Shown piece after piece: positions 3,709 through 22,159 of a stretch of 64,000 bases of DNA (position 1 is its first letter; every line of letters starts with the position of its first letter). Origin of the DNA: Pseudonocardia oceani (lineage in GTDB: Bacteria > Actinomycetota > Actinomycetes > Mycobacteriales > Pseudonocardiaceae). A program made the translations under genes and the position numbers. The notes under the pieces were generated by a model. The model worked only from the letters and a program-made list of their open reading frames with translations. It did not search any database and was not told where the DNA came from. The stretch covers positions 5,094,501-5,158,500 of the forward strand of contig NZ_JADQDF010000001.1 of assembly GCF_019263585.2 (NCBI RefSeq), in the 5' to 3' direction.

Positions 3709-3818
3709 CGGGGCCCGCCCGCCGTGGGGTGCCCGTCGAACAGCGTGCCGGTCACGGTGCCTCCTCGCATCGTCGTCGAGCCCCCGCAGCGTAACCGCCG
3801 CAGATCCCGGTGGGCTCC

Positions 3819-3863
3819 TTGACAGGGCTGACGAACGAGCAACAATCTAGGTATATCCTAACT
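3819..3863 (+). promoter_or_regulatory. Promoter/operator region upstream of the flavoprotein gene
   Basis: In the divergent gap between the SDR and the flavoprotein, TTGACA (3819-3824) is followed 21 bases later by TCTAGG (3846-3851). An alternative pair, TGACGA (3829-3834), 17 bases, TATATC (3852-3857), would place the RNA start at or near the ATG. The -10 area is imperfectly palindromic (TAGGTATATCCTA, 3848-3860), as expected for a repressor site. TTGACA-N21-TCTAGG recurs exactly at 5527-5559. Assignment of -35/-10 is a visual inference. Confidence 0.45.
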
Positions 3864-5558
3864 ATGAATGCGGGGTCGATGGTGACCGATGTCGTCGTGG
3901 TCGGTGCGGGGATCGGGGGGATGTCCGCCGCGATCGCCGCCGCCGCGCGGGGGCTGGACGTCGTGCTGCTCGAGAAGGGCGCGCGGGTCGGTGGCGCGGC
4001 GGCCTACTCGGGCGGTCAGGTGTGGGTGGGGGGCAACCACGTCGCCGAGCGGGAGGGCCTGTCGGACTCCGTCGCCGACACCCTGGCCTACGTCGCCGCG
4101 GCGGCCTCGCGGGACGAGGCGTCCCTCGACCACCACCTCGCGGCCCAGTGGATCGAGGGGGCCCGCACCGCGGCGCGCTGGTTCGAGGACGCCGGGGTGA
4201 TCTCCTGGCAGGTCATCCCCGACTACCCGGACTACTACTTCCCCGACCTGCCCGGGTCGCGACCGGCGGGCCGCTACCTGACCGGGGCGCCGTTCGACGG
4301 CGGGGCGCTCGGGCCGGAGCGGGACCGGCTGCTGGTCAGCCCGCACTTCCCGGTCGGGATCACCTACGCCGAGATGTTCGCCTGGGGCGGGCTGTCCAGC
4401 AAGACGGAGTGGGACTGGGACCTGGTCGCCCGCCGTCGGGACGCGGACGTCCTCACGTTCGGCACCGGGATCGCCGCGGCGTTCTTCCGCGGCGTGCTCG
4501 ACCACGGCGTCGACGTCCGGACCGGGCACGAGGTCGTCGGGCTGGTCGTGGCCGACGGCGCGGTGACCGGGGTCCGTGTCCGGGGGCCCGAGGGCGAGGA
4601 GGTCGTCACCGGCCGGGTCGTCCTCGCCACCGGCGCGCACGACTGGTCCGAGGAGCTCACGGCGAAGTTCACCGGAATCCCGCCGGAGGACGGCGGCAGC
4701 GTCGCCCCGGGCACGCTGTCCGGCGACGCCATCGCGCTCGTCGAGCAGGTGGGCGGGTCGCCGGACTCGCTGCCCGCGTGGGCGGCCCCGGTGCTGCCGG
4801 GGTACCGGCTGGACGTCCCGGCGTTCGAGGGGGACACGGGCTTCCGCGCCTGCTACGAGCACTGCCTCCCGCACACCTTCCTCGTCAACTCCCTCGGTGA
4901 GCGGTTCTGCGACGACTCCTTCCACAGCCGCATCGTCGCCGCCGCCCTGTCCGACGGCGACAGCGGCGGCAACCTCCCCTTCTTCATGATCTGGGACTCC
5001 CGGCACCACCGCCGGTACGGCCTCGGTGCGACGCCGCCCGGCGGCGAGTACCCGGCCGGACTGGTCGAGCGCGGCGCGACGCTCGCCGACCTGGCACGGG
5101 AGCTGGGTCTGCCGCCGGAGACGCTGGAGGCGACCGCCGCACGGTTCAACCGGCACGCGCCCGAGGGCGTGGACCCCGATTTCGGGCGGGGTACCAACCT
5201 GTCCGTGCGCAAGTTCCGCGGGGACGGGCGGCACGCGCCGAACCCCAACGTCGGCCCGGTCTCCGATCCGCCGTTCTTCGGGATGCGGATGCGTCTGCTC
5301 AACACCGGGATCGCCGCCGCGGGCGTGCGCACCGGCGACCACGGCCGGGTCCTCGACGGTGCCGGCGCGCCCGTTCCCGGGCTCTACGCGGCCGGGGAGT
5401 GCTCGGCACGCGCGGCGGCGGGGGTCGGTTACAACAGCGGCTACTCGCTCAGCAGGGCGATGGCGTACGGGTTCCTCGCCGCCCAGGCCATCGCGGACAC
5501 CCCGGCCGATCGCGCCCCGCAGGGGGTTGACACCGTGACGGGCGACACGAAAGTCTAG
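3864..5558 (+). CDS. FAD-dependent oxidoreductase (3-ketosteroid-dehydrogenase/fumarate-reductase flavoprotein family)
   Basis: 564 residues. The N-terminal FAD motif GAGIGG (residues 14-19) is followed by an acidic residue after strand 2 and the SGG segment typical of FAD_binding_2 proteins. The C-terminal GLYAAGECSARAAAG and NSGYSLSRAMAYG close the FAD site. Such proteins introduce or reduce a double bond in steroids, fumarate-like acids or related substrates. I chose ATG 3864; ATG 3879 is also possible. The spacing to the upstream TATATC suggests a leaderless or near-leaderless message. First gene of the 3.9-9.7 kb catabolic run. Confidence 0.85.
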   Translation: MNAGSMVTDVVVVGAGIGGMSAAIAAAARGLDVVLLEKGARVGGAAAYSGGQVWVGGNHVAEREGLSDSVADTLAYVAAAASRDEASLDHHLAAQWIEGARTAARWFEDAGVISWQVIPDYPDYYFPDLPGSRPAGRYLTGAPFDGGALGPERDRLLVSPHFPVGITYAEMFAWGGLSSKTEWDWDLVARRRDADVLTFGTGIAAAFFRGVLDHGVDVRTGHEVVGLVVADGAVTGVRVRGPEGEEVVTGRVVLATGAHDWSEELTAKFTGIPPEDGGSVAPGTLSGDAIALVEQVGGSPDSLPAWAAPVLPGYRLDVPAFEGDTGFRACYEHCLPHTFLVNSLGERFCDDSFHSRIVAAALSDGDSGGNLPFFMIWDSRHHRRYGLGATPPGGEYPAGLVERGATLADLARELGLPPETLEATAARFNRHAPEGVDPDFGRGTNLSVRKFRGDGRHAPNPNVGPVSDPPFFGMRMRLLNTGIAAAGVRTGDHGRVLDGAGAPVPGLYAAGECSARAAAGVGYNSGYSLSRAMAYGFLAAQAIADTPADRAPQGVDTVTGDTKV

Positions 5559-6213: not shown

Positions 6214-7254
6214 ATGAAGCTCGGACTCGCCCTCCCGACCATGCAGAACGGCTGGGTCATCTCGCACACCTCGCCGAAGTTCTCCCCGGACTGGTCGCTG
6301 ATCAAGCACGCGGCGCTCACCGCGGAGGCGTACGACTTCGACTTCCTGCTCTCCACCGTGCAGCTGGTGGGGTTCGCGGGGCCGACCAAGCACTTCCACG
6401 AGACGGCCGACTCCTTCGCGATCATGGCCGGGCTGGCCGCGGTCACCGAGCGGCTGATGCTGTACGGGTCCATCGCGACCCTCACCACCCCGCCGCCGCT
6501 GGCGGCCAAGCAGGCGCAGACGATCTCCGACATCTCCGGTGGCCGGTTCGGGCTCAACATCGTGTCCGGGCTGGAGAAGGGGATGTACTCCCAGATGGGC
6601 ATCTGGCCCGGGGACCACCACTTCAGCACGCGCTACGACCACGCGACGGAGTACGCGACGATCGTGCGCGAGCTATGGGAGACCGGGCGGTCGGACTTCA
6701 CGGGCCAGTACTTCCAGATGGACGGCTGTCACCTGGGCCCCACCCCGAAGCACCCGATCGAGATCGTCTGCGCGGGCCAGTCGGACCGCGGCACGCAGTT
6801 CTGCGCCGAGTTCGGGGACTACCAGCTCGCCATCGGCAAGCTGGACCCGGACGAGATGCGGCAGTGGAACGACCGGCTGCAGAAGGCCACCGCCGCCGCG
6901 GGTCGGCGGTGCGGCATGCACGCGCTCTACACGATCGTCCTGCGCGACACCGACGCCGAGGCGGAGGAGGCGATCGAGGACTGGCGCAGCAACCAGGACT
7001 ACGAGACCGTCGCGGGGTTGGCGGGCCGCGAGTACGGCGACGGTGACGACGCGGCCACCAAGAACATCTACTACAACTCCGACACCTTCATGCTCAGCTT
7101 CCCGACGATCGCCGGGAGCGCCGAGACGGTGGCGGAGAAGCTGCGCGCGCTCGGGGCCGTCGAGGGGGTGTCCGGGATCCTGATGACCTTCCAGGACTAC
7201 CGGACCGACGTCGAGCGCTTCGGCAAGGAGGTCGTCCCGCTCCTGCGATCCTGA
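6214..7254 (+). CDS. LLM-class flavin-dependent monooxygenase, RutA-like
   Basis: 346 residues of the bacterial luciferase-like TIM-barrel superfamily. Remembered segments of the pyrimidine oxygenase RutA are closely matched: NGWVIS near the N-terminus, ESF/DSF-IMAGLAAVT, ISGGRFGLNIVSG, QMGIWPGD, HPIEIVCAGQSDRG, and a C-terminal GILMTFQDY. RutA opens uracil with FMN and O2. Here there are no other rut genes and the neighbours are redox enzymes, so the substrate is probably different. ATG 6214 is preceded by GGAGG (6202-6206). Confidence 0.85.
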   Translation: MKLGLALPTMQNGWVISHTSPKFSPDWSLIKHAALTAEAYDFDFLLSTVQLVGFAGPTKHFHETADSFAIMAGLAAVTERLMLYGSIATLTTPPPLAAKQAQTISDISGGRFGLNIVSGLEKGMYSQMGIWPGDHHFSTRYDHATEYATIVRELWETGRSDFTGQYFQMDGCHLGPTPKHPIEIVCAGQSDRGTQFCAEFGDYQLAIGKLDPDEMRQWNDRLQKATAAAGRRCGMHALYTIVLRDTDAEAEEAIEDWRSNQDYETVAGLAGREYGDGDDAATKNIYYNSDTFMLSFPTIAGSAETVAEKLRALGAVEGVSGILMTFQDYRTDVERFGKEVVPLLRS

Positions 7255-7260
7255 CGTCCA

Positions 7261-7292
7261 CCGGTCCACCCCTCGGGCGAGGGGTGGACCGG
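7261..7292 (+). terminator. Strong intercistronic hairpin
   Basis: A perfect 14-bp stem (CCGGTCCACCCCTC / GAGGGGTGGACCGG) with a GGGC loop begins 6 bases after the LLM stop. There is no T-run. It may be a Rho-independent-like terminator of the GC-rich actinobacterial type or a 3'-protecting structure that lowers expression of the downstream gene. Confidence 0.55.
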
Positions 7293-7315
7293 CTCCCACC
7301 ACCTGGAGTTGTGCC

Positions 7316-9247
7316 GTGCGCTTCCCGCACCTGGCGGCCGGGCTGTCCCACGGACGGCTGCGGCTCAAGAACAGGATCGTCTTCCCGGGGCACCAGACGC
7401 TCATGTCGTCCGGTGGCGTGGTCGGCGACCAGATGTACCGCTACTACCTCGAGCGCGCCAAGGGCGGCACCGGTGCCGTCGTCGTCGAGGGGGCGGCGAT
7501 CCACCCGACCGCGCCGAAGTTCCCGAACTACCTGCTCGCCTACGACGAGACCATCGTCCCATCGCTGGACCGGCTGGCCGACGGCCTGCACGAGCACGGC
7601 TGCGCCGTGTGGGTCCAGCTCGCGCACAGCGGGTCGCGCATGCCCTCGCTCGACTCGTTCCGTCCCCTGTGGGCGCCGTCCGACGTCCGCAGCGCGATCT
7701 CCCCGGAGGTCCCGCACGCGATGACCGAGGCCGAGATCCAGGAGCTGCTCGCGGGCTACGAGCAGGCCGCCCGGATGGTGGGTCTCTCCCGTGCGGACGG
7801 GGTGGAGTTCCACTCCGCCCACGAGTACCTGCCCGTCCAGTTCCTCTCGCCGGTCAACAACCGTCGCACGGACCGCTGGGGCGGCTCGCTGGAGAACCGG
7901 ATGCGCTTCCTCCTGGAGGGCCTGCGGCGCACCCGGGCGGGCCTGGGCGAGGACCGGGTCCTGGGCGTGCGGCTCAACGGCACCGACCTGCGCGAGGACG
8001 GGCTCGGCTCCGACGACTACGTGGAGATCGCGCGGCGGATCGAGGAGACCGGGCTGGTCGACTACCTCAGCGTCAGCGCCGGCACCTCGGCCCACAACCA
8101 CATGATCGTCCCGCCGATGGACGTCGAGCACGGCGTGTTCGTGCCCTTCGCCGCGGCGATCCGCAAGGCCGTCGACATCCCGGTGATCGCGGTCGGGCGG
8201 ATCAAGGACCCGGCCCACGCCGAGCGGATCCTGGCCGGCGGCGAGGCCGACGCCGTCGCCGTCACCCGGGCCCAGATCGCCGACCCGGAGTGGGTCCACA
8301 AGATCCAGGAGGCGCCCGGGACGGTGCGCCCCTGCATCGGCTGCAACCAGGGCTGCTTCGGCAACCTCTACCTGGCGCGGCACCTGACGTGCTCGGTGAA
8401 CCCGGCGGTCGGCCGGGAGGCCGAGCTCGGTCTCGGCACGCTCCCGGCCGCGGAGGGCCGCATGCGGGTCGCCGTGGTGGGTGGCGGCCCGGCCGGGATG
8501 GAGGCCGCCATCACCGCGGCGGAGCGCGGTCACGAGGTGGTCCTGGTCGAGGCGACCGGGTCGCTCGGCGGCGAGGTCCCGCTGGCCTCGTCGACCGGGG
8601 CGCGGCGTGAGCTGGCCGAGATCGTGGAGTTCCAGGCAGGCGAGCTCGAGCGGCTGGGTGTCGAGGTGCGGCTCGGGGTGCGCGCCACCGCGGAGTCCCT
8701 CGACGGGTACGACGCCGTGGTCGTCGCGACCGGCTCGACGGCCCGGGAACCCTCCGTACCGGTCGAGGGGACCCGCGTCCTGACCCCGCACGAGGCCCTG
8801 GCCGCCCGCGACGAGGACTGGACCGGCCGGCGGGTCGTCGTCGTCGACGAGGTCGGGCACTTCCCGGCCTACCTGCCGGCGGAGGTGCTCGCCGACGCCG
8901 GCGCCGAGGTCGTCGTCGCGACGGGGAAGCTGTCGGCGGGGTCGGGCCTGGACTCGGCGACGCTGATGACCATGCACACCCGGCTGGCCCGCAAGGGTGT
9001 CGAGTTCCTGGTGCACGCCGCGGCCACCGGTGTGGGCCCGCAGGTCGTGCACTTCCGGGACACGCTGTCGGGCGTCGAGTTCGACCGTCCGGCCGATGTC
9101 GTCGTCACCGCCTCCGGCAACCGCGTGCGGGACGACCTCACACCGGTCCTGCGCAACACGACGGTCCTGGCGGCGGGCGACGCCGTCGCTCCCCGCACCA
9201 TCACCGAAGCCGTGCGCGAGGGCCGCCTCGTCGGTCGCGCGCTCTGA
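7316..9247 (+). CDS. Old Yellow Enzyme/FAD-NAD(P) fusion reductase (2,4-dienoyl-CoA reductase/trimethylamine-dehydrogenase type)
   Basis: 643 residues in three blocks. An N-terminal FMN TIM barrel (residues about 1-330) has the OYE hallmarks VEFHSAHEYLPVQFLSP and RTDRWGGSLENR. A [4Fe-4S] cluster follows (CIGCNQGCFG, first Cys near residue 340, with a fourth Cys 11 residues after it). The C-terminal FAD/NAD(P) module contains VVGGGPAGMEAA near residue 389 and GDAVAPRTITEAVREG at the end. Such enzymes pass electrons from NAD(P)H through FAD, Fe-S and FMN to an enone or dienoyl-CoA. GTG start at 7316 with GGAG at 7304. The following SnoaL gene is 11 bases away. Confidence 0.9.
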   Translation: MRFPHLAAGLSHGRLRLKNRIVFPGHQTLMSSGGVVGDQMYRYYLERAKGGTGAVVVEGAAIHPTAPKFPNYLLAYDETIVPSLDRLADGLHEHGCAVWVQLAHSGSRMPSLDSFRPLWAPSDVRSAISPEVPHAMTEAEIQELLAGYEQAARMVGLSRADGVEFHSAHEYLPVQFLSPVNNRRTDRWGGSLENRMRFLLEGLRRTRAGLGEDRVLGVRLNGTDLREDGLGSDDYVEIARRIEETGLVDYLSVSAGTSAHNHMIVPPMDVEHGVFVPFAAAIRKAVDIPVIAVGRIKDPAHAERILAGGEADAVAVTRAQIADPEWVHKIQEAPGTVRPCIGCNQGCFGNLYLARHLTCSVNPAVGREAELGLGTLPAAEGRMRVAVVGGGPAGMEAAITAAERGHEVVLVEATGSLGGEVPLASSTGARRELAEIVEFQAGELERLGVEVRLGVRATAESLDGYDAVVVATGSTAREPSVPVEGTRVLTPHEALAARDEDWTGRRVVVVDEVGHFPAYLPAEVLADAGAEVVVATGKLSAGSGLDSATLMTMHTRLARKGVEFLVHAAATGVGPQVVHFRDTLSGVEFDRPADVVVTASGNRVRDDLTPVLRNTTVLAAGDAVAPRTITEAVREGRLVGRAL

Positions 9248-9727: not shown

Positions 9728-10885
9728 TCAGTCCACCTCGGCGCACAGCGTCGTGGCGATGCCGAGCTTGAGCACCTCCGATGCGCCCTCGTAGAGGCGC
9801 ATCGGCCGGGCCTGGCGGTAGTAGCGCTCGATCGGGCTGTTCGCGACCAGGCCCCAGCGGCCCATCACCTGCACGCAGCGGTCCACGACCCGGCTCGCGG
9901 CCTCGGTGGCCGCGACCTTGGCCATCGAGGAGCGGTTCAGCGCCCCGCGCGCGTCCTCGCGGGCGGCGGAGGCGGCCTGGTAGGTCAGCAGCCGGGCCAT
10001 CTCGACGTCGTTCCAGGAGTCGGCGAGCAGCTGGGCGACGGGGCCGTGCTTGAGCAGCGGGCGGCCGAACTGCTCGCGGGTGCGGGCGTGGCGGGCGGCT
10101 TCCTCCAGAGCGCCGGTGGCCAGCCCGACCGCGGCGCCGGCGACGGACACCCGGAACACCGCGAGGGTGCTCAGCACGAGCGACATCGCCTTGCCGGGCA
10201 CACCCAGGCGCGCCTCCGGCGGCAGCACGACGCCGTCGAAGCCCACGTCGCCGAGCACGTGCGGCGCGATCAGCTCCGGGCTGGGCCGGGTGCTGACGCC
10301 CGGAGCGTCGGACGGGACGAGCACCAGCGAGAGCGCGGGGCCGCCGTCGAGCTCCTCCTTGACGAGGGTGACGAAGAAGTCGGCCGCCCCGGCGTTGGAG
10401 ATGAACGACTTCTCCCCGTGGACGACCAGCTCGCCGTTCTTCTCGGTGACGGTGGTCGACACGTTCTTGAGATCGGAGCCCGCGTTCTCCTCGGTGAGCG
10501 CCAGCCCGGCCAGGGTCTCCAGGGACGCGACCCGCGGCAGCCAGTGGCGGCGCTGCTCCTCGGTGCCGCCGACGGTGATGGCGTAGCTGCCGATGCCCTG
10601 CAGGGCGAACATGGAGTCCAGGTGCGAGGAACCCTTCATGAGGACCTCGCGGACCAGGCAGACGGCCAGGGGGTCGACCTGCGCGCCGCGGCCGCCGAAC
10701 TCGGAGGGCACCATCAGGGCGGCCAGGCCACTGGCCCGCAGGGCCTCCCGCATCCCCGGGTGGATCTCGCTCATCGCGTCGGCCTCGGCCGCGATGTCCG
10801 CGACGGAGGCGGTGAGAGCCGCGGCCTCGTCCTGGAGCGCGCGCTCGGCAGTGCCCAGGCCGAACCACTTCTCGGTGAAGTCCAT
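9728..10885 (-). CDS. Acyl-CoA dehydrogenase
   Basis: 385 residues, the standard FAD acyl-CoA dehydrogenase length. It has the N-terminal helical domain, the LALTEENAGSDLKNV flavin/substrate segment, an RTREQFGRPL-like stretch in domain III, QVMGRWGLVANSPIERYYRQAR, and the catalytic glutamate in MRLYEGASEV near residue 370. Reaction: alpha,beta-desaturation of an acyl-CoA. ATG 10885 lies immediately beside an AGTA...TACT element, and divergent to it is the GntR gene, so GntR control is likely. Confidence 0.9.
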   Translation of the reverse strand: MDFTEKWFGLGTAERALQDEAAALTASVADIAAEADAMSEIHPGMREALRASGLAALMVPSEFGGRGAQVDPLAVCLVREVLMKGSSHLDSMFALQGIGSYAITVGGTEEQRRHWLPRVASLETLAGLALTEENAGSDLKNVSTTVTEKNGELVVHGEKSFISNAGAADFFVTLVKEELDGGPALSLVLVPSDAPGVSTRPSPELIAPHVLGDVGFDGVVLPPEARLGVPGKAMSLVLSTLAVFRVSVAGAAVGLATGALEEAARHARTREQFGRPLLKHGPVAQLLADSWNDVEMARLLTYQAASAAREDARGALNRSSMAKVAATEAASRVVDRCVQVMGRWGLVANSPIERYYRQARPMRLYEGASEVLKLGIATTLCAEVD

Positions 10886-10988
10886 GAGTACTATGATACT
10901 GAATTGCGCTCCGCGAGTCGAGGCCGCGGGGCGCCCGTGGCGGGGTCGCCGGGATGACAGGCATCCCTGAGTACGATGATGACGATAT
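10886..10988. promoter_or_regulatory. Divergent promoter/operator region between acyl-CoA dehydrogenase and GntR regulator
   Basis: Two related words flank the gap: GAGTACTATGAT (10886-10897) and GAGTACGATGAT (10969-10980). The first is part of an AGTA-N6-TACT dyad. A GATATC follows the second at 10983. Similar ATGATATC recurs at 11906-11913 before the next operon. These are candidate sites for the adjacent FadR-type regulator; the assignment is inference. Confidence 0.45.
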
Positions 10989-11010
10989 CGGCACCGCCAG
11001 GGGAGTGAGC

Positions 11011-11784
11011 ATGACCGCCGCACGCAGGGACGTCGCGCCGCGTACCGGTCCGTCGGGGATGCCTCCCAAGCGGGCGACGGTGATCGCGCAGCGCATCGTC
11101 AAGGAGATCAAGGACCGCAACCTGCAGGCGGGCGCCCACCTGCCGCCCGAGCGGGACATGCTCGAGACCTACAACGTCGGGCGCAACACGCTGCGCGAGG
11201 CGCTGCGGGTGCTCGAGCTGCAGGGCGTGCTGACCATCCGCCCGGGACCGGGCGGCGGGCCGGTGGTGACCTCGCCGGACTCGCGGCACCTCGCCAGCAC
11301 CCTCGCGCTGCTGATGCAGTTCGCCGACACCCCGTTCCGGGCGGTGATCGAGACCCGCCAGCTGCTGGAGCCGATCACCGCGCGGCTCTGCGCGGAGCGG
11401 GGGGACGCGGGGCTGCTGGCCGACCTGCGCGGGTCGGTGAACGCGATGGGGGCGAGCCTCGACGACCGCGAGGCGTTCCTCGACGAGAACCGGCGGTTCC
11501 ACGACCTCGTCGCCTGGGGATCGGACAACGCCCTGTTCGGCTACTGCATCAACTCGCTGCACTGGATCACCGACGGCACCGTGCTGGGCGTCGACTACCC
11601 GCGCCGGTTCCGCAAGCTCGTGTGGCAGGCGCACGACGAGGTGTGCACGGGCATCGAGTCCGGCGAGGGCGCCCGCGCCGAGGCGGCCATGCGCAAGCAC
11701 ATGGACGACACGCTCGTCTACTTCGAGCGGCACTACCAGCGGCAGATGGACGAGGTCCTGAGCTGGGAGATGTACGCGACCTGA
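11011..11784 (+). CDS. FadR-type GntR transcriptional regulator
   Basis: 257 residues. The N-terminal winged helix has VIAQRIVKEIKDRNLQAGAHLPPERDM and the recognition region GRNTLREALRVLELQGVL. A C-terminal all-helical FCD domain carries candidate metal/ligand histidines and acidic residues (ENRRFHDLVAW; RKHMDDTL). FCD-GntR proteins usually sense organic acids or acyl-CoA. ATG 11011 has a GGGGAG site at 11000. It sits between a divergent acyl-CoA dehydrogenase and the downstream pathway operon and likely controls both. Confidence 0.88.
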   Translation: MTAARRDVAPRTGPSGMPPKRATVIAQRIVKEIKDRNLQAGAHLPPERDMLETYNVGRNTLREALRVLELQGVLTIRPGPGGGPVVTSPDSRHLASTLALLMQFADTPFRAVIETRQLLEPITARLCAERGDAGLLADLRGSVNAMGASLDDREAFLDENRRFHDLVAWGSDNALFGYCINSLHWITDGTVLGVDYPRRFRKLVWQAHDEVCTGIESGEGARAEAAMRKHMDDTLVYFERHYQRQMDEVLSWEMYAT

Positions 11785-11972: not shown

Positions 11973-12839
11973 ATGAGCAAGACGCTGCTGGAGCGGGAGC
12001 AGGACCACCCGCAGGAGATCGTGGTGGAGCGCGACGGCCGTCGGGTCGTCACGATGGACTCCGCCCGCTACGTCGACGCCCGCAACACCGATCGCGACGT
12101 CGTCGTGCCCGCGTCCTACATCGGGGTGCTGCCCGCGCGGATGGTCGCGATCCACCGGCCGCGCGGCGTCATCGGCCACGACGCCTGCGTCGGCAAGGAC
12201 GGCGCCGGCATCGCGGGCCTGTGGTACCTGGAGGCGCTCGGCATCCCCGCCGCGACCGCCGACGGCATGACCGCCGACATGGGGAACGGCGAGGACCTCT
12301 ACCGCTCCGGCGTCGTGAAGCACGTCAACTACGTGGCCGAGACCTGTGGGGTGAAGGCCGGCATGACCGTCGCCGAGGCGGCGGACGTGCTGCTGGACAA
12401 CGAGCCCACCGACACCACGGTCGGCAACAAGGTGCGCCGCGAGGTCGTGGAGACCCACGGGAGCGGGCGTCGCGTCGTCGTCACCGACTCGATCGTCTGG
12501 GCCTACCCCGAGGACGAGGACACGTCGGTGCTGGTCACCGCCGGGCACACCGGCCGCAGCGGCGCGAAGTTCCTGCTCGAGGCGCGGCCGTGGGGCTTCA
12601 TCTGCCACGACGGCGGGATGAGCAAGAACCGGTCGGGCATCGCCGGTCTGGTCACCGCCGACGAGGCGGGGCTCGCGGGCGCCTGCATCGACGGCACCAC
12701 CGCGCCGATCGGCGACGCCTTCCTCGGCTACGAGATGGGCCTGATCAGCGCGCACAACGAGGCCGCGGCGCGGCGCGGCGTCGCGGTGGGGATGACCGTC
12801 AAGGAGGCCGCGCACCTGCTCCTGGTGGGTGGCGGATGA
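11973..12839 (+). CDS. Conserved protein built of two tandem copies of a ~143-residue unit, function unknown
   Basis: 288 residues; I do not recognise the family. The two halves align almost gap-free at an offset of 143 residues: RRVV 23-26 with 166-169, DS 29-30 with 172-173, HD 69-70 with 212-213, GIAGL 79-83 with 222-226, GMTV-EAA-LL 130-141 with 273-284. No signal peptide or membrane segment is visible. Conserved His-Asp and Gly-rich loops suggest a ligand or metal site in each half. ATG 11973 has only a weak AGGA behind it. It overlaps the DUF35 gene by 4 bases, so it is translated with the DUF35-thiolase pair and probably works in the same pathway. Confidence 0.75.
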   Translation: MSKTLLEREQDHPQEIVVERDGRRVVTMDSARYVDARNTDRDVVVPASYIGVLPARMVAIHRPRGVIGHDACVGKDGAGIAGLWYLEALGIPAATADGMTADMGNGEDLYRSGVVKHVNYVAETCGVKAGMTVAEAADVLLDNEPTDTTVGNKVRREVVETHGSGRRVVVTDSIVWAYPEDEDTSVLVTAGHTGRSGAKFLLEARPWGFICHDGGMSKNRSGIAGLVTADEAGLAGACIDGTTAPIGDAFLGYEMGLISAHNEAAARRGVAVGMTVKEAAHLLLVGGG

Positions 12840-13228
12840 CCGCCGTCGACGCAGCGGGTGCGCCCGCCCTGACCGCGCCGTTCTGGGCGGCGGCGGCCCG
12901 GCACGAGCTGGTCCGCCCCGTCTGCCGCGGGTGCGGGCGCAACTTCTTCACCCCGCAGGTCGCCTGCCCGGCGTGCCTGTCGGAGGACTGGGCCTACGAG
13001 CCGAGCACGGGACGCGGCCGCGTCTACAGCGCCACGGTCGTGCACAGGCCGCCCGGCCCGGGGTTCGCGGTGCCGTTCGGTCTCGGCATCGTCGACCTCG
13101 ACGAGGGCTGGAGCATGCTCGCGACGCTGGTCGGCGAGCCCCTGCCCGCGATCGGCGCCGCCGTGGAGATCACCTGGGAGGAGCGCGGCGGCCGCACGCT
13201 GCCCGCGTTCCGGGAGGTCCGGTCGTGA
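12836..13228 (+). CDS. Zn-ribbon/OB-fold DUF35 protein
   Basis: 130 residues. An N-terminal rubredoxin-like zinc ribbon (CRGCGRNFFTPQVACPAC, residues about 30-47) is followed by an OB fold (GRGRVYSATVVHRPPGPGF). DUF35 proteins dock on thiolase-superfamily partners, for example the aldolase complexes of steroid side-chain degradation, and bind the acyl-CoA. It overlaps both neighbours by 4 bases (ATGA, GTGA), so it is most likely a subunit of the thiolase that follows. Confidence 0.9.
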   Translation: MTAVDAAGAPALTAPFWAAAARHELVRPVCRGCGRNFFTPQVACPACLSEDWAYEPSTGRGRVYSATVVHRPPGPGFAVPFGLGIVDLDEGWSMLATLVGEPLPAIGAAVEITWEERGGRTLPAFREVRS

Positions 13229-14382
13229 GGCTCTCGGACGTCGCGGTCGTGGGTGTCGGGCTGACGCCGCAGGTGAAGCGCTCGGACCGGAACTCGCTGC
13301 AGGTGGCCCTGGACGCGGCGAAGCTCGCGCTGGCCGACGCCGGGCTGCGGCACACCGACGTCGACGGCATCGCCGCCCGCTGGCCCGGCCCCGGCGGCAC
13401 CGAGCTCGCCCCCGGCTCCGCCGACTGGTCCACCCTGCTCGGCGTGCCGGTCGGGTGGATCGGCGACTCCTACCCGCAGGGCGTCCCCGCGCTGGTCGAC
13501 GCCGCGGGGGCGATCCTCACCGGGCAGGCCACCACGGTCCTGATCACCGGCGGGCAGGCCGGGGTGCTCGGCGGCGGCACCGTCGCCTCCTACACCCGGC
13601 CGGGCAACGAGTTCGTGGAGCCGTTCGGTGCGTTCACGGCCACCCACTTCGCGCTGGTCGCCCAGCGGCACCTGGCCCGCTTCCCGCACGCGCGCCGCGG
13701 CGCCGCGGAGATCGCGGCGACGATCCGCACCACCGGCTCGGCCAACCCCGAGGCCGTGATGCACGGCCGCGGCCCGTACACCGCCGACGACGTGCTCACC
13801 GCGCCTCCCGTGGTCGACCCGTTCACGCTGCTGGACCTGTGCCTGGCCTCGGAGGGGGGAGCGGCGATCGTGGTGACCACGCTGGAGCGGGCGCGCGACC
13901 TGCCGCACCCCCCGGTCGTGCTCCTGGGCGCGGGCATGGAGTGGGCCCGCCAGCAGTACGTCGACCCGGCCCGCTACGACGAGGTCTGGTCGCTGGGCTC
14001 CGACGCCGGCGCCAAGGCGTTCGGCCAGGCCGGGCTCGGCCCGTCGGACGTCGACGTCGCCCAGCTCTACGACGTCAACTCCCTCGAGGTCGCCCGCCAG
14101 TTCGAGGCGCTGGGCTTCTGCGCCACCGGAGAGGGCACCGACTTCGCGCTCGCCACGGGGATCGGGCCCGACGGGAAGCTGCCCACCTGCACCGACGGCG
14201 GGCTGCTGAGCTTCAGCCACATCGGCTGGGGCGCCCCCACGCTGAAGATCGTCGAGGCCGTCCGCCAGCTGCGCGGCACCGCAGGCCCCCGGCAGGTCGC
14301 CGGGGCCGAGGTCGCCCTCGCCGCCGGAGCCGGCTCCGGCGCCCAGTACTACAACGCGGCGCTCCTCGGACGCGCCCGCTGA
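13225..14382 (+). CDS. Thiolase-superfamily protein (SCP2-thiolase/Ltp aldolase-like)
   Basis: 385 residues. N-terminal VAVVGVGLTP, a VDGIAARWPG segment, a SEGGAAIVV strand, DVDVAQLYDVNSLEVARQFEALGFC, and the C-terminal GGLLSFSHIGWGAP with the usual His. The position where degradative thiolases have the nucleophilic Cys (before LVDAAGAILTGQA) has no Cys. The LYD tyrosine is instead where the acid/base of Ltp2-type retro-aldolases lies. With its DUF35 partner it fits an acyl-CoA aldolase or lyase better than a true thiolase; that is inference. GTG 13225. Confidence 0.85.
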   Translation: MRLSDVAVVGVGLTPQVKRSDRNSLQVALDAAKLALADAGLRHTDVDGIAARWPGPGGTELAPGSADWSTLLGVPVGWIGDSYPQGVPALVDAAGAILTGQATTVLITGGQAGVLGGGTVASYTRPGNEFVEPFGAFTATHFALVAQRHLARFPHARRGAAEIAATIRTTGSANPEAVMHGRGPYTADDVLTAPPVVDPFTLLDLCLASEGGAAIVVTTLERARDLPHPPVVLLGAGMEWARQQYVDPARYDEVWSLGSDAGAKAFGQAGLGPSDVDVAQLYDVNSLEVARQFEALGFCATGEGTDFALATGIGPDGKLPTCTDGGLLSFSHIGWGAPTLKIVEAVRQLRGTAGPRQVAGAEVALAAGAGSGAQYYNAALLGRAR

Positions 14383-14414: not shown

Positions 14415-15593
14415 GTGACGACGATCGACACGACGACCACCGACACGACGACCACGTCCGGGGCGCCGCGCGGCGCCTCGGACCGGTTCGACCTGAAGCG
14501 CAACGGGGTCATCGACTCCGACGTGCACCCCAACTTCGTCAACGGCATCCGCGACCTGATGCCGTACATGACCGAGACGTGGCGGACCCGCCTGGGGATC
14601 AGCGGCGCCGACTGGGCGAAGGGGATGGCGGCGGCGCAGTTCACGCTGCCGCTGGACTACCTCTACATCAACCCGGCGGGTGCCTACCGCGAGGACGCGG
14701 CCCGACCGGGCATGCCACCGGCGACCGACCCCGAGTTCGTCGCGCAGCAGCTGCTGGACCCGCACCGGATCTACCGCTCCGTGCTGCTGTCGGGCCAGTG
14801 CCTGGGCATCGGGGCCATGCCCGACGGCATGGTCGCGGCCACGATCGCCTCGGCCTACAACGAGTGGATGTGCGAGCGCTGGCTGCAGGTCGACGAGCGC
14901 TTCCGTGGCGCGATCGTCGTCGCCCCGCAGGACCCGGAGGCCGCCGTCGCCGAGATCGACCGGATGGCGGGCCGCGACGGCGTCGTCGCGGTGTTCATGC
15001 CGCTGGGCCAGATCCTCATGGGGGAGAAGCACTACTGGCCGATCTACGAGGCCTGCGCGCGCCACGAGCTGCCGATCGTGACCCACCCCAGCGGCACCGA
15101 GAACGTGTTCGCGAAGGCGCCGCAGATGGCCGGCACGCCGACGTTCTACCTGGAGTGGCACACCGCGCTCGGGCAGATCCACCAGTCCAACACGCTGAGC
15201 ATGATCTGCCACGGGGTGTTCGAGAAGTTCCCGAACCTCACCCACGTGATCGCCGAGGGCGGCTTCATGTGGGCGCTGGAGGTGATGTGGAAGCTCGACC
15301 GCGACTGGAAGGGCCTGCGCAACGAGGTGCCGTGGCTGACCAAGCCGCCGTCGGAGTACCTGCTCGGCAACATCCGCTTCACCACGCAGCCCTTCATCGA
15401 GCCGCACGACCCGCGCCACCTCGCGCCGCTGATGGAGATGCTGCACGCCGACCGCGTGCTGATGTACAGCTCGGACTACCCGCACTGGGACTTCGACAAC
15501 CCGGACCGGGCGCTGCAGGGCCTCTCGCCCGAGCTGCGCCGCGCCATCCAGGTCGACACGCCCCGCGCCGTCTACGGAGACCGTCTTGACTGA
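14415..15593 (+). CDS. Amidohydrolase-family protein (ACMSD/gamma-resorcylate decarboxylase type)
   Basis: 392 residues. After a Thr-rich low-complexity N-terminus (residues 2-15), the metal-site signatures of amidohydrolase family 2 follow: DSDVHPN near residue 35, LPIVTHPSG mid-chain, and YSSDYPHWDFDNPD near the end. Members are Zn/Mn-dependent decarboxylases or hydrolases of aromatic and alicyclic acids. GTG 14415 behind GGAGGGAG. The Rieske gene starts inside its last codons. It probably performs a C-C or decarboxylation step in this operon. Confidence 0.85.
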   Translation: MTTIDTTTTDTTTTSGAPRGASDRFDLKRNGVIDSDVHPNFVNGIRDLMPYMTETWRTRLGISGADWAKGMAAAQFTLPLDYLYINPAGAYREDAARPGMPPATDPEFVAQQLLDPHRIYRSVLLSGQCLGIGAMPDGMVAATIASAYNEWMCERWLQVDERFRGAIVVAPQDPEAAVAEIDRMAGRDGVVAVFMPLGQILMGEKHYWPIYEACARHELPIVTHPSGTENVFAKAPQMAGTPTFYLEWHTALGQIHQSNTLSMICHGVFEKFPNLTHVIAEGGFMWALEVMWKLDRDWKGLRNEVPWLTKPPSEYLLGNIRFTTQPFIEPHDPRHLAPLMEMLHADRVLMYSSDYPHWDFDNPDRALQGLSPELRRAIQVDTPRAVYGDRLD

Positions 15594-15978
15594 CACCGCC
15601 ACCGCGCGCGCCACCATGCCCAAGGGGACCCCGCACGTCGTCGCCACCGTCGGCGAGCTGCCCCCGGGCAGCCGCAAGATCGTGGAGATCGACGGCCGGT
15701 CCATCGGCGTGCTCAACGTCGACGGCCGCCTGCACGCGCTGATGAACAACTGCCCGCACCACGGCGCCCCGCTCTGCGAGGGCGTCGTCAAGGGGACGAT
15801 GGAGGACTCGGCGCCGCACGAGTACTCCTACGGCCGGCACGACGAGTACCTGGTGTGCCCGTGGCACGGGTACGAGTTCCGGCTCGACACCGGGCGTCCG
15901 CTGCTGGACATGGGGCGCCTGCGGGTCCGTGTCTACGACGTCCGCGCCGAGGGTGACCACATCGTCCTCTACGTCTGA
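15586..15978 (+). CDS. Rieske [2Fe-2S] protein
   Basis: 130 residues. Cluster motifs CPHHG (about residue 64) and CPWHGYEF (about residue 99) give C-x-H ... C-x2-H. The gap between them is about 32 residues, longer than the usual 15-17, with an insertion containing KGTMEDSAPHEYSYGRHDEY. A TTG start at 15586 is used behind GGAGA (15576-15580); it overlaps the previous gene by 8 bases. It may be the ferredoxin or electron-carrier part of an oxygenase system with the reductase at 17571. No catalytic oxygenase alpha subunit is in the window. Confidence 0.85.
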   Translation: MTDTATARATMPKGTPHVVATVGELPPGSRKIVEIDGRSIGVLNVDGRLHALMNNCPHHGAPLCEGVVKGTMEDSAPHEYSYGRHDEYLVCPWHGYEFRLDTGRPLLDMGRLRVRVYDVRAEGDHIVLYV

Positions 15979-16032: not shown

Positions 16033-17574
16033 ATGGACATCGGTGTCGCCGTACTGGCGCACGCCCGGAACACGCCGCGGGCGATCGCGGCGTTCGACGG
16101 CGACCGCTCGCTGACCTACGCCGAGCTCGACGAGCGCACCAACCGGCTCGCGAACACGCTGCAGGGCCGGTTCGGGGTGCGCCCGGGCGACCGGGTCGCG
16201 GTGCTGCTGCGCAACCGGCTCGAGGTCGCCGAGGCGATCGCCGGCTGCGCGAAGGCGGGGGCGGTCTACTGCGGGCTCAACTTCCGGATGAGCCCCGAGG
16301 AGTACCGGTCGATCTTCGGCAACGCCGGCGCCCGCGTACTGGTCACCGAGGCGCCCTTCCGTGAGCTGGCCGCCGAGCTGGCCGTGGAGTTCGACCTCGC
16401 CGTCCTCGACGTCGACGACCCGTCCGACGCCGGCTACGGGTCACTGCTCGCCGCCTCGTCCGCGCCGCCGCCCACGGTGCACGCCCGCCGCCCCGAGGAC
16501 GAGTTCTGCATCGTCTACACCAGCGGCACGACCGGGGCGCCCAAGGGCATCCTGTTCGACGCCCGGGCCGTCGCGACGCACGCCATGGTCGCGGGGCTGG
16601 AGTACGGGATGTCGGCGTCCTCGCGCTGGCTCACCGCTATCCCGCACAACTCCAGCGTGCAGATCACCCTGGCGCCGACCTTCTTCCTCGGGGGCGCGGT
16701 GGGGTTCCTCGACGCACGCGGCTTCGATCCCGGCCAGTTCGCCGCCGAGGCGACCAGGCGCGGCGCGACGCACAGCTACCTCGTGCCGACGATGCTCTAC
16801 CGCCTGCTGGAGGCCGGGATCCCTGCGGCCGAGCTGGCCACGCTCACCTCGATCGGCTACGGCGCCGCGCCGATCGCGCACGACCGCGTCACGGAGCTCG
16901 TGCAGCGCTACGGGCCGGTGTTCAGCCAGCTCTACGGGATGGCCGAGGTCGCCTCGATCGCGACCATGCTGCGCCAGGACGACCACCGGCTGATCGCGGC
17001 GGGGCGCACGGGGCTCACCGCGTCCGCCGGGCGCCCCTCGTTCCTCACCGACGTCCGGGTGGTCGACGACGAGGGCCGTGACTGCGCCCCCGGCGAGCGC
17101 GGCGAGGTCCTGTTCCACACCCCGTACACGATGCTGGGGTACCACAAGAACCCCGAGAAGACCGCGGAGACGCTGGTCGACGGGTGGGTGCACTCGGGCG
17201 ACATCGGGCAGTTCGACGACGAGGGCTACCTCTACATCGTCGACCGCAAGAAGGACCTCATCATCCGGGGCGGCTACAACATCACGCCCTCGGAGATCGA
17301 GAACGTGCTCTACTCGCACCCCGCGGTGCTGGAGGCCGCGGTGGTCGGGCTGCCCGACCGGGAGTGGGGCGAGTCGGTGCTGGCCGCCGTCGCGCTGCGA
17401 GGTGGGGCGTCGGTCGACGAGGCCGGGCTGCAGGAGCACTGCCGCGCGGCCGGGTTGCCGACGATCAAGGTCCCGGAGCGGGTGATCACGCTCGACTCGC
17501 TGCCCAAGAACGCCGTCGGCAAGATCGCGAAGCGGGTCGTCGTCGAGATCGCCACCGCGTCGGCGGCCCCGTGA
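16033..17574 (+). CDS. AMP-binding acyl-CoA ligase
   Basis: 513 residues, class I adenylate-forming. Motifs in order: LTYAELDERTNRLAN, the P-loop-like YTSGTTGAPKG near residue 165, a YGMAEVAS A5-type motif, YTMLGYHKNPEKT, SGDIGQFDDEGYLYIVDRKKD, GGYNITPSEIE and the C-terminal PKNAVGKIAK with the catalytic Lys. It activates a carboxylic acid to its CoA thioester. Good GAGAGGA site before ATG 16033. In this operon it likely primes the pathway acid for the acyl-CoA steps. Confidence 0.9.
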   Translation: MDIGVAVLAHARNTPRAIAAFDGDRSLTYAELDERTNRLANTLQGRFGVRPGDRVAVLLRNRLEVAEAIAGCAKAGAVYCGLNFRMSPEEYRSIFGNAGARVLVTEAPFRELAAELAVEFDLAVLDVDDPSDAGYGSLLAASSAPPPTVHARRPEDEFCIVYTSGTTGAPKGILFDARAVATHAMVAGLEYGMSASSRWLTAIPHNSSVQITLAPTFFLGGAVGFLDARGFDPGQFAAEATRRGATHSYLVPTMLYRLLEAGIPAAELATLTSIGYGAAPIAHDRVTELVQRYGPVFSQLYGMAEVASIATMLRQDDHRLIAAGRTGLTASAGRPSFLTDVRVVDDEGRDCAPGERGEVLFHTPYTMLGYHKNPEKTAETLVDGWVHSGDIGQFDDEGYLYIVDRKKDLIIRGGYNITPSEIENVLYSHPAVLEAAVVGLPDREWGESVLAAVALRGGASVDEAGLQEHCRAAGLPTIKVPERVITLDSLPKNAVGKIAKRVVVEIATASAAP

Positions 17575-18554
17575 CCGGGCCGGCCGCCCCGAACGCGGCC
17601 CGCGCCGCGGCGGAGCAGGAGCTCCCGGTCGTGGTGGTGGCCCGCGAGTCCGTGGCCGAGGACGTCGTCGCGCTGACGCTGCGGCGCCCCGACGGTGCCG
17701 ACCTGCCCGCCTGGACCCCGGGAGCGCACGTCGACCTGGTGCTCGACGAGCACCTCGAACGCCAGTACTCCCTGTGCGGCGACCCGGAGCAGCGCGACAC
17801 GTGGCGGGTCGCGGTGCTGCGCGAGCCCGACGGCCGCGGCGGGTCGGCGCGGGTGCACGACGGGCTCGCGGTGGGGGACACGCTCGTCGTGCGCGGGCCG
17901 CGCAACCACTTCGGGCTCGGCCCGGCCCCGCGCTACGTCTTCGTCGCCGGGGGCATCGGGATCACCCCGATCCTGCCGATGATCGCCGCCGCGCAGGCGC
18001 TGGGCGCCGAGTGGACCCTGCTCTACGGGGGCCGCCGCAGCGCGTCGATGGCCTTCCGTGAGCAGCTCGCCGAGCACGGTGACCGGGTGCGGCTGTGGCC
18101 GCAGGACAGCCTGGGGCTGCTCCCGCTCGACGACGTGCTGGGCACCCCGCAGGACGGGACGCTCATCTACTGCTGCGGCCCGGAGCCGCTGCTGCGGGCG
18201 GTCGAGGAGCGGTGTGCGGGATGGCCGCACGGCGCGCTGCACGTCGAGCGGTTCGCGCCCAAGGAGGTCGGCGAGCCGGTCCGGGCGGCGGGGTTCCGGG
18301 TCGTGTGCAGCCGGGCGGGGATCGAGGTCGTGGTGCCGCCCGAGCGCTCGATCCTCGAGGTGCTGGAGGACGCGGGAGCCCCCGTCCCGTCGTCGTGCCG
18401 GGAGGGCACCTGCGGCACGTGCGAGGCCGACGTGCTCGCCGGGCGCCCCGACCACCGCGACTCATTGCTGACCGACGACGAGCAGGACAGCGGCGAGATC
18501 ATGCTGATCTGCGTCTCCCGCTCGCTCGACGACGAGCTCGTGCTCGACATCTGA
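17571..18554 (+). CDS. PDR/VanB-type oxidoreductase (flavin reductase with C-terminal plant-type [2Fe-2S])
   Basis: 327 residues. The flavin site RQYSLCGDPEQ, NAD(P) site GGIGITPILPM and a C-terminal ferredoxin domain CREGTCGTCEADVLAGR ... ICVSRS give the FMN-NAD-[2Fe-2S] order of phthalate dioxygenase reductase and VanB. It supplies electrons to a Rieske oxygenase or demethylase. GTG 17571 overlaps the stop of the ligase gene. The partner oxygenase is not within the window, so it either lies elsewhere or the small Rieske protein at 15586 is the acceptor. Confidence 0.9.
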   Translation: MTGPAAPNAARAAAEQELPVVVVARESVAEDVVALTLRRPDGADLPAWTPGAHVDLVLDEHLERQYSLCGDPEQRDTWRVAVLREPDGRGGSARVHDGLAVGDTLVVRGPRNHFGLGPAPRYVFVAGGIGITPILPMIAAAQALGAEWTLLYGGRRSASMAFREQLAEHGDRVRLWPQDSLGLLPLDDVLGTPQDGTLIYCCGPEPLLRAVEERCAGWPHGALHVERFAPKEVGEPVRAAGFRVVCSRAGIEVVVPPERSILEVLEDAGAPVPSSCREGTCGTCEADVLAGRPDHRDSLLTDDEQDSGEIMLICVSRSLDDELVLDI

Positions 18555-20125: not shown

Positions 20126-20605
20126 TCAGGGGGTGCGCCGCTCCACCCACACCCACTCGATCTCGGGCCGTCCGTCGATCACGGCGGCGTGCACCCGGCG
20201 CTCGGCCAGCAGCCACCCGCCCCTGGTACGGACCACGACGTCGACGTAGCGCAGGTGTGCCCGCCACTGCCGCCCGTCCCACTCCTCGTGCATGGCCGTG
20301 ACGTAGGTGAGGGCGTCGACGGCCCCGATGGGACCGGCGTCGGCGCCGGCGTCGCGCGGGCGCAGCCGGCTCTGGCCGAGCTGGTGGTGGGTGCGGCGGA
20401 ACTGCGCCTGGCCGGCGGCGATGCGGTCGCGCACGGCGTCGCGGCCGGCCACGCGCCCGCCGCGACCGGGGCCGTAGTCGGTGACGCAGTCCGCGGTGAA
20501 GAGCAGGGCGACGGCGTCGATGTCGTAGGCGTCGACGAGCTCGCAGTAGTCGGCCAGGAGGTCGGCGACCGCGAGCCGGTCCTCGACGGGGAGTGCGTGC
20601 GTCAC
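20126..20605 (-). CDS. SnoaL/NTF2-like protein (hydroxylating-dioxygenase beta-like fold)
   Basis: 159 residues: LPVEDRLAVADLLADYCELVDAYD, LLFTADCVTDYGPGRGG, helix GRDAVRDRIAAGQAQFRRT, the strand HHQLGQSRLRP and a long sheet YVDVVVRTRGGWLLAERRV. This is the SnoaL_4-type layout with conserved Asp-Tyr and His. Role unknown. GTG 20605 overlaps the LLM stop by 4 bases, so it is co-translated with that enzyme. Confidence 0.75.
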   Translation of the reverse strand: MTHALPVEDRLAVADLLADYCELVDAYDIDAVALLFTADCVTDYGPGRGGRVAGRDAVRDRIAAGQAQFRRTHHQLGQSRLRPRDAGADAGPIGAVDALTYVTAMHEEWDGRQWRAHLRYVDVVVRTRGGWLLAERRVHAAVIDGRPEIEWVWVERRTP

Positions 20606-21672
20606 GGGTGGACCTCCGGGGCGTGGTGGGTGCGGAGTGCGGGCAGGACCTGCTCGCCGAAGGCCCGCACGCGACGCAGCTGGGCGTCGAGGTCGGGGTC
20701 GGGGAACAGGAACCGCAGGACGAGGTGGACGTCCGCCCAGGCGGCGAGGTCGTCGAGCAGCGTGAGCAGGGTGGCGGTGACCTGGTCGGGGTCGCCCGAG
20801 GCCTGGATGTGGCGGTCGATGCCGCCGGCGGTCAGGCCGTCCCCTCCTGTGGAACCGGCGCCCTCGGGGTCCGGGACGAGTCCGGCGTAGACCTCGCGCC
20901 CCGCCTGCATGCGCTCGTAGACGCGCTGCTGCCCGGCGAACGCCCGGCGTGCGGCGGTGCCGCCGCCGTCGTCGGTGTCCAGGACGCAGGTGACGTTCAC
21001 GGCGCGGGTGAAGCCGGGGTCGGCCGGGTCGCGCACCTGCGCGAGCTGCTCGGACGCGGCGGTGACGATGTGGCGCTCGCCCTTGCCGACGAGGTGGCCG
21101 TCGGCGAGCAGGCCGGCGCGGCGCACGGCCCTGGGGGCGTAGCCGCCGATCCAGATCGGGAGATGGCCGGTGGGGGTGGGGGTGATGCGGACGCCGGCGA
21201 GGCCGAGGCCGGGGGAGTCGAACGGCTCGCCGGTCCAGGCGTCGCGCAGGGCCGCGAGGAGCGCGTCGAGGCGGGCGCCGCGGGTGGCGGGGTCGACACC
21301 GAAGGCGCGGTACTCGTGCTCGGCGTAGCCGATGCCCAGGCCGAGCAGGAGCCGCCCGCCGCTCAGACGGTCGACGACGGCGGCGTCCTCGGCGAGGCGC
21401 ACGGGGTGGTGCAGCGGGGCGAGCAGCACGCCGGTGCCGAGCGCGATCCGTGAGGTCACCGACGACAGCGCGGCGGCCAGCACGAGTGGGGAGGGGAGGT
21501 AACCGTCGGGCAGGCCGTGGTGCTCGGTGACCCAGAAGGAGTCGAACCCGGCCTCCTCCGCGGCGACGGCGAGCGGGGCGGCGTCGGCGTAGTCGGCGCC
21601 CCCGGCCTTCTGCCCCGTGTAGAGGCCGACGCCGAAGCGGCGGACGCGCGGGGTCCTCGGTGGGGCGGTCAT
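20602..21672 (-). CDS. LLM-class flavin-dependent oxidoreductase
   Basis: 356 residues, luciferase-like monooxygenase. DSFWVTEHHGLPDGYLPSPL near the N-terminus, RIALGTGVLLAPLHHPVRLAEDAAVVDRLSGGRLLLGLGIGY, and PIWIGGYAPRAVRRAG. This is typical of FMN- or F420-dependent alkanal-monooxygenase-type enzymes. I start at ATG 21672, which overlaps the upstream SnoaL stop (ATGA); a longer frame to 21702 is possible. Flanked on both sides by SnoaL-like genes in one coupled operon. Confidence 0.88.
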   Translation of the reverse strand: MTAPPRTPRVRRFGVGLYTGQKAGGADYADAAPLAVAAEEAGFDSFWVTEHHGLPDGYLPSPLVLAAALSSVTSRIALGTGVLLAPLHHPVRLAEDAAVVDRLSGGRLLLGLGIGYAEHEYRAFGVDPATRGARLDALLAALRDAWTGEPFDSPGLGLAGVRITPTPTGHLPIWIGGYAPRAVRRAGLLADGHLVGKGERHIVTAASEQLAQVRDPADPGFTRAVNVTCVLDTDDGGGTAARRAFAGQQRVYERMQAGREVYAGLVPDPEGAGSTGGDGLTAGGIDRHIQASGDPDQVTATLLTLLDDLAAWADVHLVLRFLFPDPDLDAQLRRVRAFGEQVLPALRTHHAPEVHP

Positions 21673-22070
21673 GCGAACACCCCCGCGGTCCGGGCGCGCC
21701 ACTCGCCGAGGTCGAGGTAGTCGCGGAACTCGGTGATCAGCCCGGTGCCCGGGTCGACCTCGACCACCGCGTTGCAGGCGACGGCGTGCTCGACGCCGTC
21801 GACGCGGAACCGGTCGACGCGCTCGAGCCAGGCCCGCCCCGGGGCGTAGGCGGAGGTCACGACCTCCCAGTGCACGGCCTCGGACCGCACCAGGACCGGG
21901 CGCAGGAGGTCGGCGACGCCCTGCGGGCCGACCACCGGTTGGTGCGGCACGTTGCGGTAGCGGGCGCCGGGGGCGAAGCAGGCCCCGGCCGCGTCGGCGT
22001 CGCGGTCGTGCACGGCGGCGAGGAAGCGCTCGACCGCCCGCTCGGCGGAGGCGGTGGGCTCGTCGGGCAT
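21669..22070 (-). CDS. SnoaL/NTF2-like protein
   Basis: 133 residues: ASAERAVERFLAAVHDRDADAAGACFAPGARYRNVPHQPVVG followed by helix and strands ending LITEFRDYLDLGEWR. Limonene-epoxide-hydrolase/SnoaL-like fold; reaction unknown. ATG 22070 is preceded on its strand by GGGAGCC. First gene of the minus-strand operon, divergent from the flavoprotein at 22160 with the palindrome at 22107 between them. Confidence 0.75.
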   Translation of the reverse strand: MPDEPTASAERAVERFLAAVHDRDADAAGACFAPGARYRNVPHQPVVGPQGVADLLRPVLVRSEAVHWEVVTSAYAPGRAWLERVDRFRVDGVEHAVACNAVVEVDPGTGLITEFRDYLDLGEWRARTAGVFA

Positions 22071-22122: not shown

Positions 22123-22159
22123 ACTAATCTCCACACACGCTGCTGCGGGGGGAGTGACG

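Follow-up and report, generated by a model that had tools for sequence, protein, structure and literature searches.

Excerpts of PMC12329534 describe the aldolases Ltp2 and Sal, whose complexes are the Protein Data Bank (PDB) entries 6ok1 and 9myr, as docking through DUF35 onto the hydratase of the preceding step, and they assign catalysis by enzymes of the Ltp2 type to the tyrosine of a YDHF motif and to a second tyrosine. In these systems (ChsH1–ChsH2–Ltp2 and Shy–Sal) DUF35 is fused to a subunit of the hydratase. Two further groups of proteins are of concern here: RuBisCO-like proteins, which in two bacteria act on 3-oxo-isoapionate-4-phosphate according to a section of PMC6302742, and DUF1805 proteins, the genes for which are listed in part of PMC9425974 as linked to tRNA methylase in methanogens. 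The subject of this work is a gene of Pseudonocardia oceani, P0001, which occupies the hydratase's place in the gene order, ahead of DUF35 and thiolase-like genes, in a 64,000-nucleotide stretch of contig NZ_JADQDF010000001.1 (positions 5,094,501 to 5,158,500 of the forward strand; the window). Its product is internally duplicated, and on the basis of gene context we propose, with a probability of about 0.35, that the family to which it belongs consists of enzymes acting on β-keto or β-hydroxy acids or their coenzyme A (CoA) esters.

The sequence-only reading of the window had taken P0001 to be a tandem duplication with a constant offset of 143 residues, and both claims stand. All three motif pairs are exactly 143 residues apart (HD at 69–70 and 212–213, GIAGL at 79–83 and 222–226, and GMTV-EAA-LL at 130–141 and 273–284), and a BLAST alignment of residues 22–141 with residues 165–284 has 47 identities in 120 positions (39%) without a gap (E = 5e-23). 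The Smith–Waterman score of one half against the other is 183, as compared to a mean of 32 (standard deviation 5.8) and a maximum of 72 for 2000 shuffles, which rules out a chance likeness. In the AlphaFold2 model, 11 elements of the first half return in the same order 139–144 residues later, and only a short helix at residues 5–8 has no equivalent in the second half. Thus, what was found is the recurrence of a domain rather than one continuous domain devoid of symmetry. Residues 148–288 modeled alone gave a predicted local distance difference score (pLDDT) of 90.9 and a predicted template modeling score (pTM) of 0.88. P0001 is therefore very probably a fused pseudo-dimer of an α/β domain of about 130 residues. 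The sequence AGGA is found immediately upstream of its start codon, and the similarity of an antisense open reading frame (ORF), P0002 (11919–12815), is solely to sequences opposite genes of the P0001 family.

The domain is also found in unduplicated form. Single-copy homologs, which the sequence-only reading had proposed to look for, are present at loci L028 and L030 (a product of 134 residues in genome G237 and one of up to 150 residues in G184), and genome G406 contains two unfused single-domain genes, X1 and X2, which overlap by 7 nucleotides in the order SDR–BKACE–X1–X2–DhaK (the name BKACE is explained in a portion of PMC4922564). Such an unfused pair is what one would expect if the single-copy forms were to dimerize. 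Therefore, the domain of P0001 can exist alone. In a tree of 54 domains, each branch keeps its own N and C halves together, with a support of 81 for the actinobacterial/Aminobacter branch and of 54 for the haloarchaeal/proteobacterial one, a topology that would mean two fusions. An approximately unbiased (AU) test did not reject a single duplication (p-AU of 0.43 versus 0.52–0.70), and by these sequence comparisons the number of fusion events may be one or two. The tree was built without the near copies L003, L004, L005, L007, L008, L010, L014, and L026 and without L022; L008 is outside alignments A1 and A4, L022 is outside alignment A2, and sub-ORF fragments of 150–174 residues were left out.

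A genome scan yielded 13 loci, eight of them in Pseudonocardia. Family members were matched in 7 of 396 genomes of the phylum and in 12 of 62 genomes of the genus. Ten of these 12 have an ortholog of P0001, and nine of the ten have in addition a paralog (A) that is 54–55% identical to P0001 and 13 to 26 kb distant from it; at loci L011, L013, L014, and L032 paralog A immediately precedes the ortholog. In P. oceani itself, a second duplicated protein of the family, 55% identical, is encoded about 13 kb before the window (G000:C3:5080529-5081350; L002, L034), directly downstream of an SDR gene, with a BKACE gene 3.4 kb away. A tblastn search of plasmids returned 13 records, three from Rhodococcus at 77–78% identity and others at 30–35% from Aminobacter, Ponticoccus, Rhizobium, Methylovirgula, and haloarchaea; in the 12 annotated plasmid records the family member is labeled as a hypothetical protein. 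A pattern scan of viral contigs found no member.

We compared residues among 50 halves and four single domains (the 54 rows of the thinned set). Conserved residues cluster in loops at strand ends (DS, SHG, ND-G-GK, S-A-IGD, and S--N), which probably form a small-molecule site, and the asparagine at positions 119 and 262 of P0001 is kept in all 54 rows. The pair of residues after strand 3 differs between halves. In the branch that includes P0001 (branch I), all 17 N halves have Ser-Tyr and all 17 C halves have the histidine preceded by glycine or alanine; in branch II it is Ser-His in all eight N halves and all eight C halves. Single domains have the serine in four of four cases and the histidine in three of four. 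L022 is outside this count; with Ser-Asn in the N half and Ser-His in the C half, it would break the uniformity of branch II. The halves are thus specialized in the P0001 branch, with Ser-Tyr in one and the histidine in the other.

The sequence-only reading also held P0001 to be translationally locked to a DUF35–thiolase pair. The locking is borne out by stop/start overlaps on both sides of the DUF35 gene, ATGA with P0001 (12836–12839, 4 nucleotides) and GTGA with the thiolase-like gene (13225–13228); as for the synteny that it proposed to check, P0001 is followed by a DUF35 gene in 16 of 17 P0001-type loci, a count that excludes L011, where the contig ends just past the gene. The nearest DUF35 start is no more than 4 nucleotides away in 14 loci; L005 was not properly scored, L038 has a gap of at least 52 nucleotides, and at L012 the 600 nucleotides examined contain no DUF35 gene. 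The term thiolase holds only in part. The gene is indeed coupled, and the best PDB match of its product is 4u4e (named Thiolase), but the usual cysteine is absent and the next matches are the aldolases Ltp2 and Sal. In a phmmer alignment, with the column read by eye, the cysteine of 7yvy, which we take to be the thiolase nucleophile, is aligned with a tyrosine; 4u4e, with YDSF, likewise has no cysteine at that place. By eye, YDHF of Ltp2 corresponds to YDVN, with the first tyrosine kept, and the second tyrosine of Ltp2 to a histidine. An automatic thiolase label on 13225–14382 could therefore mislead. The likeness to the Ltp2 and Sal systems is one of gene order and of PDB entries (6ok1 and 9myr are among the closest for both partners), but neither aldolase is the best match of the thiolase-like protein and the DUF35 protein stands alone. 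P0001 would probably dock on the DUF35/thiolase-like complex or pass substrate to it.

The gene order raises the question of whether P0001 is itself a hydratase that has replaced MaoC, hydrating an enoyl-CoA and handing the β-hydroxyacyl-CoA to the DUF35/thiolase-like lyase. The order P0001–DUF35–lyase resembles hydratase–DUF35–aldolase in ChsH2/Ltp2 and Shy/Sal (excerpts of PMC12329534), and the close spacing (a DUF35 start within 4 nucleotides in 14 of the 16 loci having the gene) fits such a handover. In addition, there is no PF01575 (MaoC) match within 130 kb of P0001, the nearest in the genome being 137 kb away, in a search limited to that one hydratase family. However, the hydration could fall to a crotonase: genes for such enzymes are annotated close to the Rhodococcus ortholog, and one was identified by eye in the CB1190 cluster. 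Moreover, the best fold match of P0001 is TA1206, which is not a hot-dog protein, neither of the two Pfam families that P0001 matches at E up to 10 is MaoC, and branches located beside RuBisCO-like and acid-sugar kinase genes show little CoA chemistry other than BKACE. We consider a hydratase unlikely. We give no better odds to P0001 being a noncatalytic subunit that stabilizes or regulates the complex. Genes that overlap or nearly do so, and the status of DUF35 as a docking domain in the same excerpts, are what such a subunit would lead one to expect, but polar loop positions are strongly conserved and none of eight distant loci (L016–L019 and L021–L024) has a DUF35 or thiolase match (E threshold of 1e-15).

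What then favors an enzyme of β-keto or β-hydroxy acid metabolism is that relatives adjoin genes for BKACE, RuBisCO-like proteins, and acid-sugar kinases. In all four haloarchaeal loci opened (of five hits), the family member is followed by genes for a RuBisCO-like protein and a four-carbon acid sugar kinase. The single-copy gene of L028 has as neighbors a RuBisCO-like gene, an acid sugar kinase gene (SBD_N/NBD_C, also called DUF1537), and genes for a PGDH_C protein and BKACE, and a RuBisCO-like match adjoins the single-copy gene of L030. Of 18 genomes known to contain the family, 12 were searched for BKACE, and in 6 of these a BKACE gene is no more than 5.2 kb away from a family member. Some relatives of P0001 are thus placed as in D-apiose catabolic clusters, beside RuBisCO-like and acid-sugar kinase genes, but neither gene was seen in the operon of P0001 itself. 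Two loci have features of their own. In L070, two BKACE genes (6531–7382 and 9879–10769) lie on either side of X1/X2 and a Dak1 gene, with an MR_MLE enzyme about 8 kb off; in L041, the RuBisCO-like gene (7597–9085, minus strand) is split over two reading frames, by either sequencing error or real decay.

The proposed step would adjoin a C–C cleavage or decarboxylation carried out by BKACE, by a RuBisCO-like protein, or by the DUF35/thiolase-like pair. Our best guess as to its chemistry would be a cofactor-free isomerization (keto–enol tautomerization or epimerization), although an isomerase in particular is a doubtful choice. Hydrolase and decarboxylase steps are common in such pathways, and an enzyme that hydrolyzes or decarboxylates a β-keto lactone or acid would suit the identical gene context. 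Here, however, no serine or cysteine nucleophile is common to all branches, with Ser48 being replaced by glycine or alanine in the 17 C halves of branch I, and we hold this alternative to be improbable.

Several observations weigh against the β-keto/β-hydroxy acid proposal. BKACE is absent from 3 of the 12 genomes (G162, G247, and G258), and in G410, G447, and G470 it is present but not near the family member; because the four Pseudonocardia cases with paralog A look like one inherited cluster, the associations amount to about three independent lineages. The Ponticoccus relative (L018) has plasmid replication genes on one side and a PQQ-dehydrogenase set on the other, with no other clear catabolic neighbors. 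Neighbor genes differ among branches, and the family could have several unrelated roles. The conserved lysine is replaced by proline in 6 of the 17 N halves of branch I, and none of the conserved residues appears to be an obvious nucleophile. How the halves are arranged relative to each other is uncertain in the model of the full protein (pTM of 0.61), and no function for DUF1805, which has the closest fold, was found among open-license papers.

That fold match requires comment. A search of the PDB with the P0001 sequence gave no match at E up to 10, and the domain profile gave 16 weak matches, mostly DNA polymerases (best E of 0.14). The closest structural match of the modeled domain is TA1206 (DUF1805; 1qw2), as judged by VIA-align and by Foldseek probabilities (0.82 and 0.75 over 58 columns) rather than by Foldseek E values, none of which was below 0.001 for either model. 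These comparisons of models support DUF1805 as the closest known fold. Membership in the Pfam family is another matter: PF08827 scores 29.2 bits on whole P0001, summed from two stretches, just short of the gathering score of 29.5, and 18.7 and 14.5 bits on the separate halves. An hhalign comparison covered 24 columns with a probability of 23% (27 columns and 36% with more rows), so that the sequences resemble each other over some 25 residues toward the end of each repeat instead of over the whole domain. PF08827 was matched in none of 41 relatives and, below the cutoff, in 2 of 296 phylum genomes, scans that also missed P0001 itself and so are no measure of the family. P0001 has between strands 3 and 4 an SHGG-helix segment that YunC lacks, its motifs SHG, ND-G-GK, and SARIGD are absent by eye from six DUF1805 rows, and its family, unlike DUF1805, is mostly duplicated and often in catabolic surroundings.

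We consider it very unlikely that P0001 belongs to DUF1805 and serves an unrelated purpose, perhaps one linked to RNA: the TA1206 match and the tRNA methylase linkage in methanogens (part of PMC9425974) point that way, but most contexts opened hold catabolic enzymes and the sequence likeness is short. Kinship with Y-family DNA polymerases can be set aside, since the 29.7 bits that carry whole P0001 over the Pfam IMS cutoff of 23.2 are the sum of two short stretches, one per repeat, each covering 27–28 of 148 domain positions. The IMS match (DNA polymerase IV type) in 11973–12839 is a likely cause of wrong annotation. A resemblance to RraA, an initial guess, was dropped, as RraA was not among the matches shown in the family and fold searches. 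In agreement with the sequence-only reading, which could place P0001 in no named family, none of the libraries searched offers a name that fits, although the fold is not wholly new, and we found no study of the family among open-license papers.

Table 1. Features of the P0001 locus, in window coordinates
Feature	Position	Strand	Remarks
P0001, 288 residues, internal tandem duplication	11973..12839	+	translation without internal stop
P0001 repeat 1, aligned core, residues 22–141	12036..12395	+	ungapped BLAST versus repeat 2
P0001 repeat 2, aligned core, residues 165–284	12465..12824	+	ungapped BLAST versus repeat 1; residues 148–288 modeled separately
Ser48-Tyr49, repeat 1 counterpart of Ser-His pair	12114..12119	+	Ser and Tyr in 17/17 branch I N halves
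Gly191-His192, repeat 2 counterpart of Ser-His pair	12543..12548	+	Gly 16, Ala 1, His 17/17 in branch I C halves
Stand-alone DUF35 protein (zf-ChsH2 and OB_ChsH2_C)	12836..13228	+	Pfam 8.1e-17 and 6.9e-08; best PDB chain ChsH2(DUF35), 6ok1_B
Thiolase-like protein, YDVN motif, without usual nucleophilic Cys	13225..14382	+	Pfam Thiolase_C_1; PDB 4u4e, then 6ok1_A, 9myr_A
GntR/FCD regulator, upstream	10954..11784	+	longest ORF; true start may be internal
Amidohydro_2 protein	14421..15593	+	start approximate
Rieske-type [2Fe-2S] protein	15586..15978	+	
AMP-binding ligase	16033..17574	+	
Flavin/NAD/[2Fe-2S] reductase-like protein	17568..18554	+	start approximate

The remaining genes of the operon (Table 1) make acid degradation, as it was first described, a fair reading of the neighbors. 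Elsewhere in the window (3810–5555, 6214–7251, 7316–9247, 20605–21702, and 22154–23584) are an Oxidored_FMN enzyme and, read by eye, flavin dehydrogenases and luciferase-like monooxygenases, which suggest that the operon belongs to a larger catabolic island.

In its fullest form, which we offer tentatively and regard as rather unlikely to hold in every part, the proposal is that this unnamed family of enzymes, with members in haloarchaea, proteobacteria, and actinobacteria, is responsible for an unrecognized step in the catabolism of β-keto or β-hydroxy acids, that P0001 stands in for a MaoC hydratase, docked through DUF35 on a cysteine-less lyase resembling Ltp2, and that its two fused halves have a single ancestral active site in common. 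Although the libraries searched offer no suitable name for the family, many of its members lie among named enzymes. Since it occurs in single, unfused-pair, and fused forms, one domain would suffice to test activity, oligomeric state, and what fusion changes, and the family may provide a chemical lead for DUF1805.
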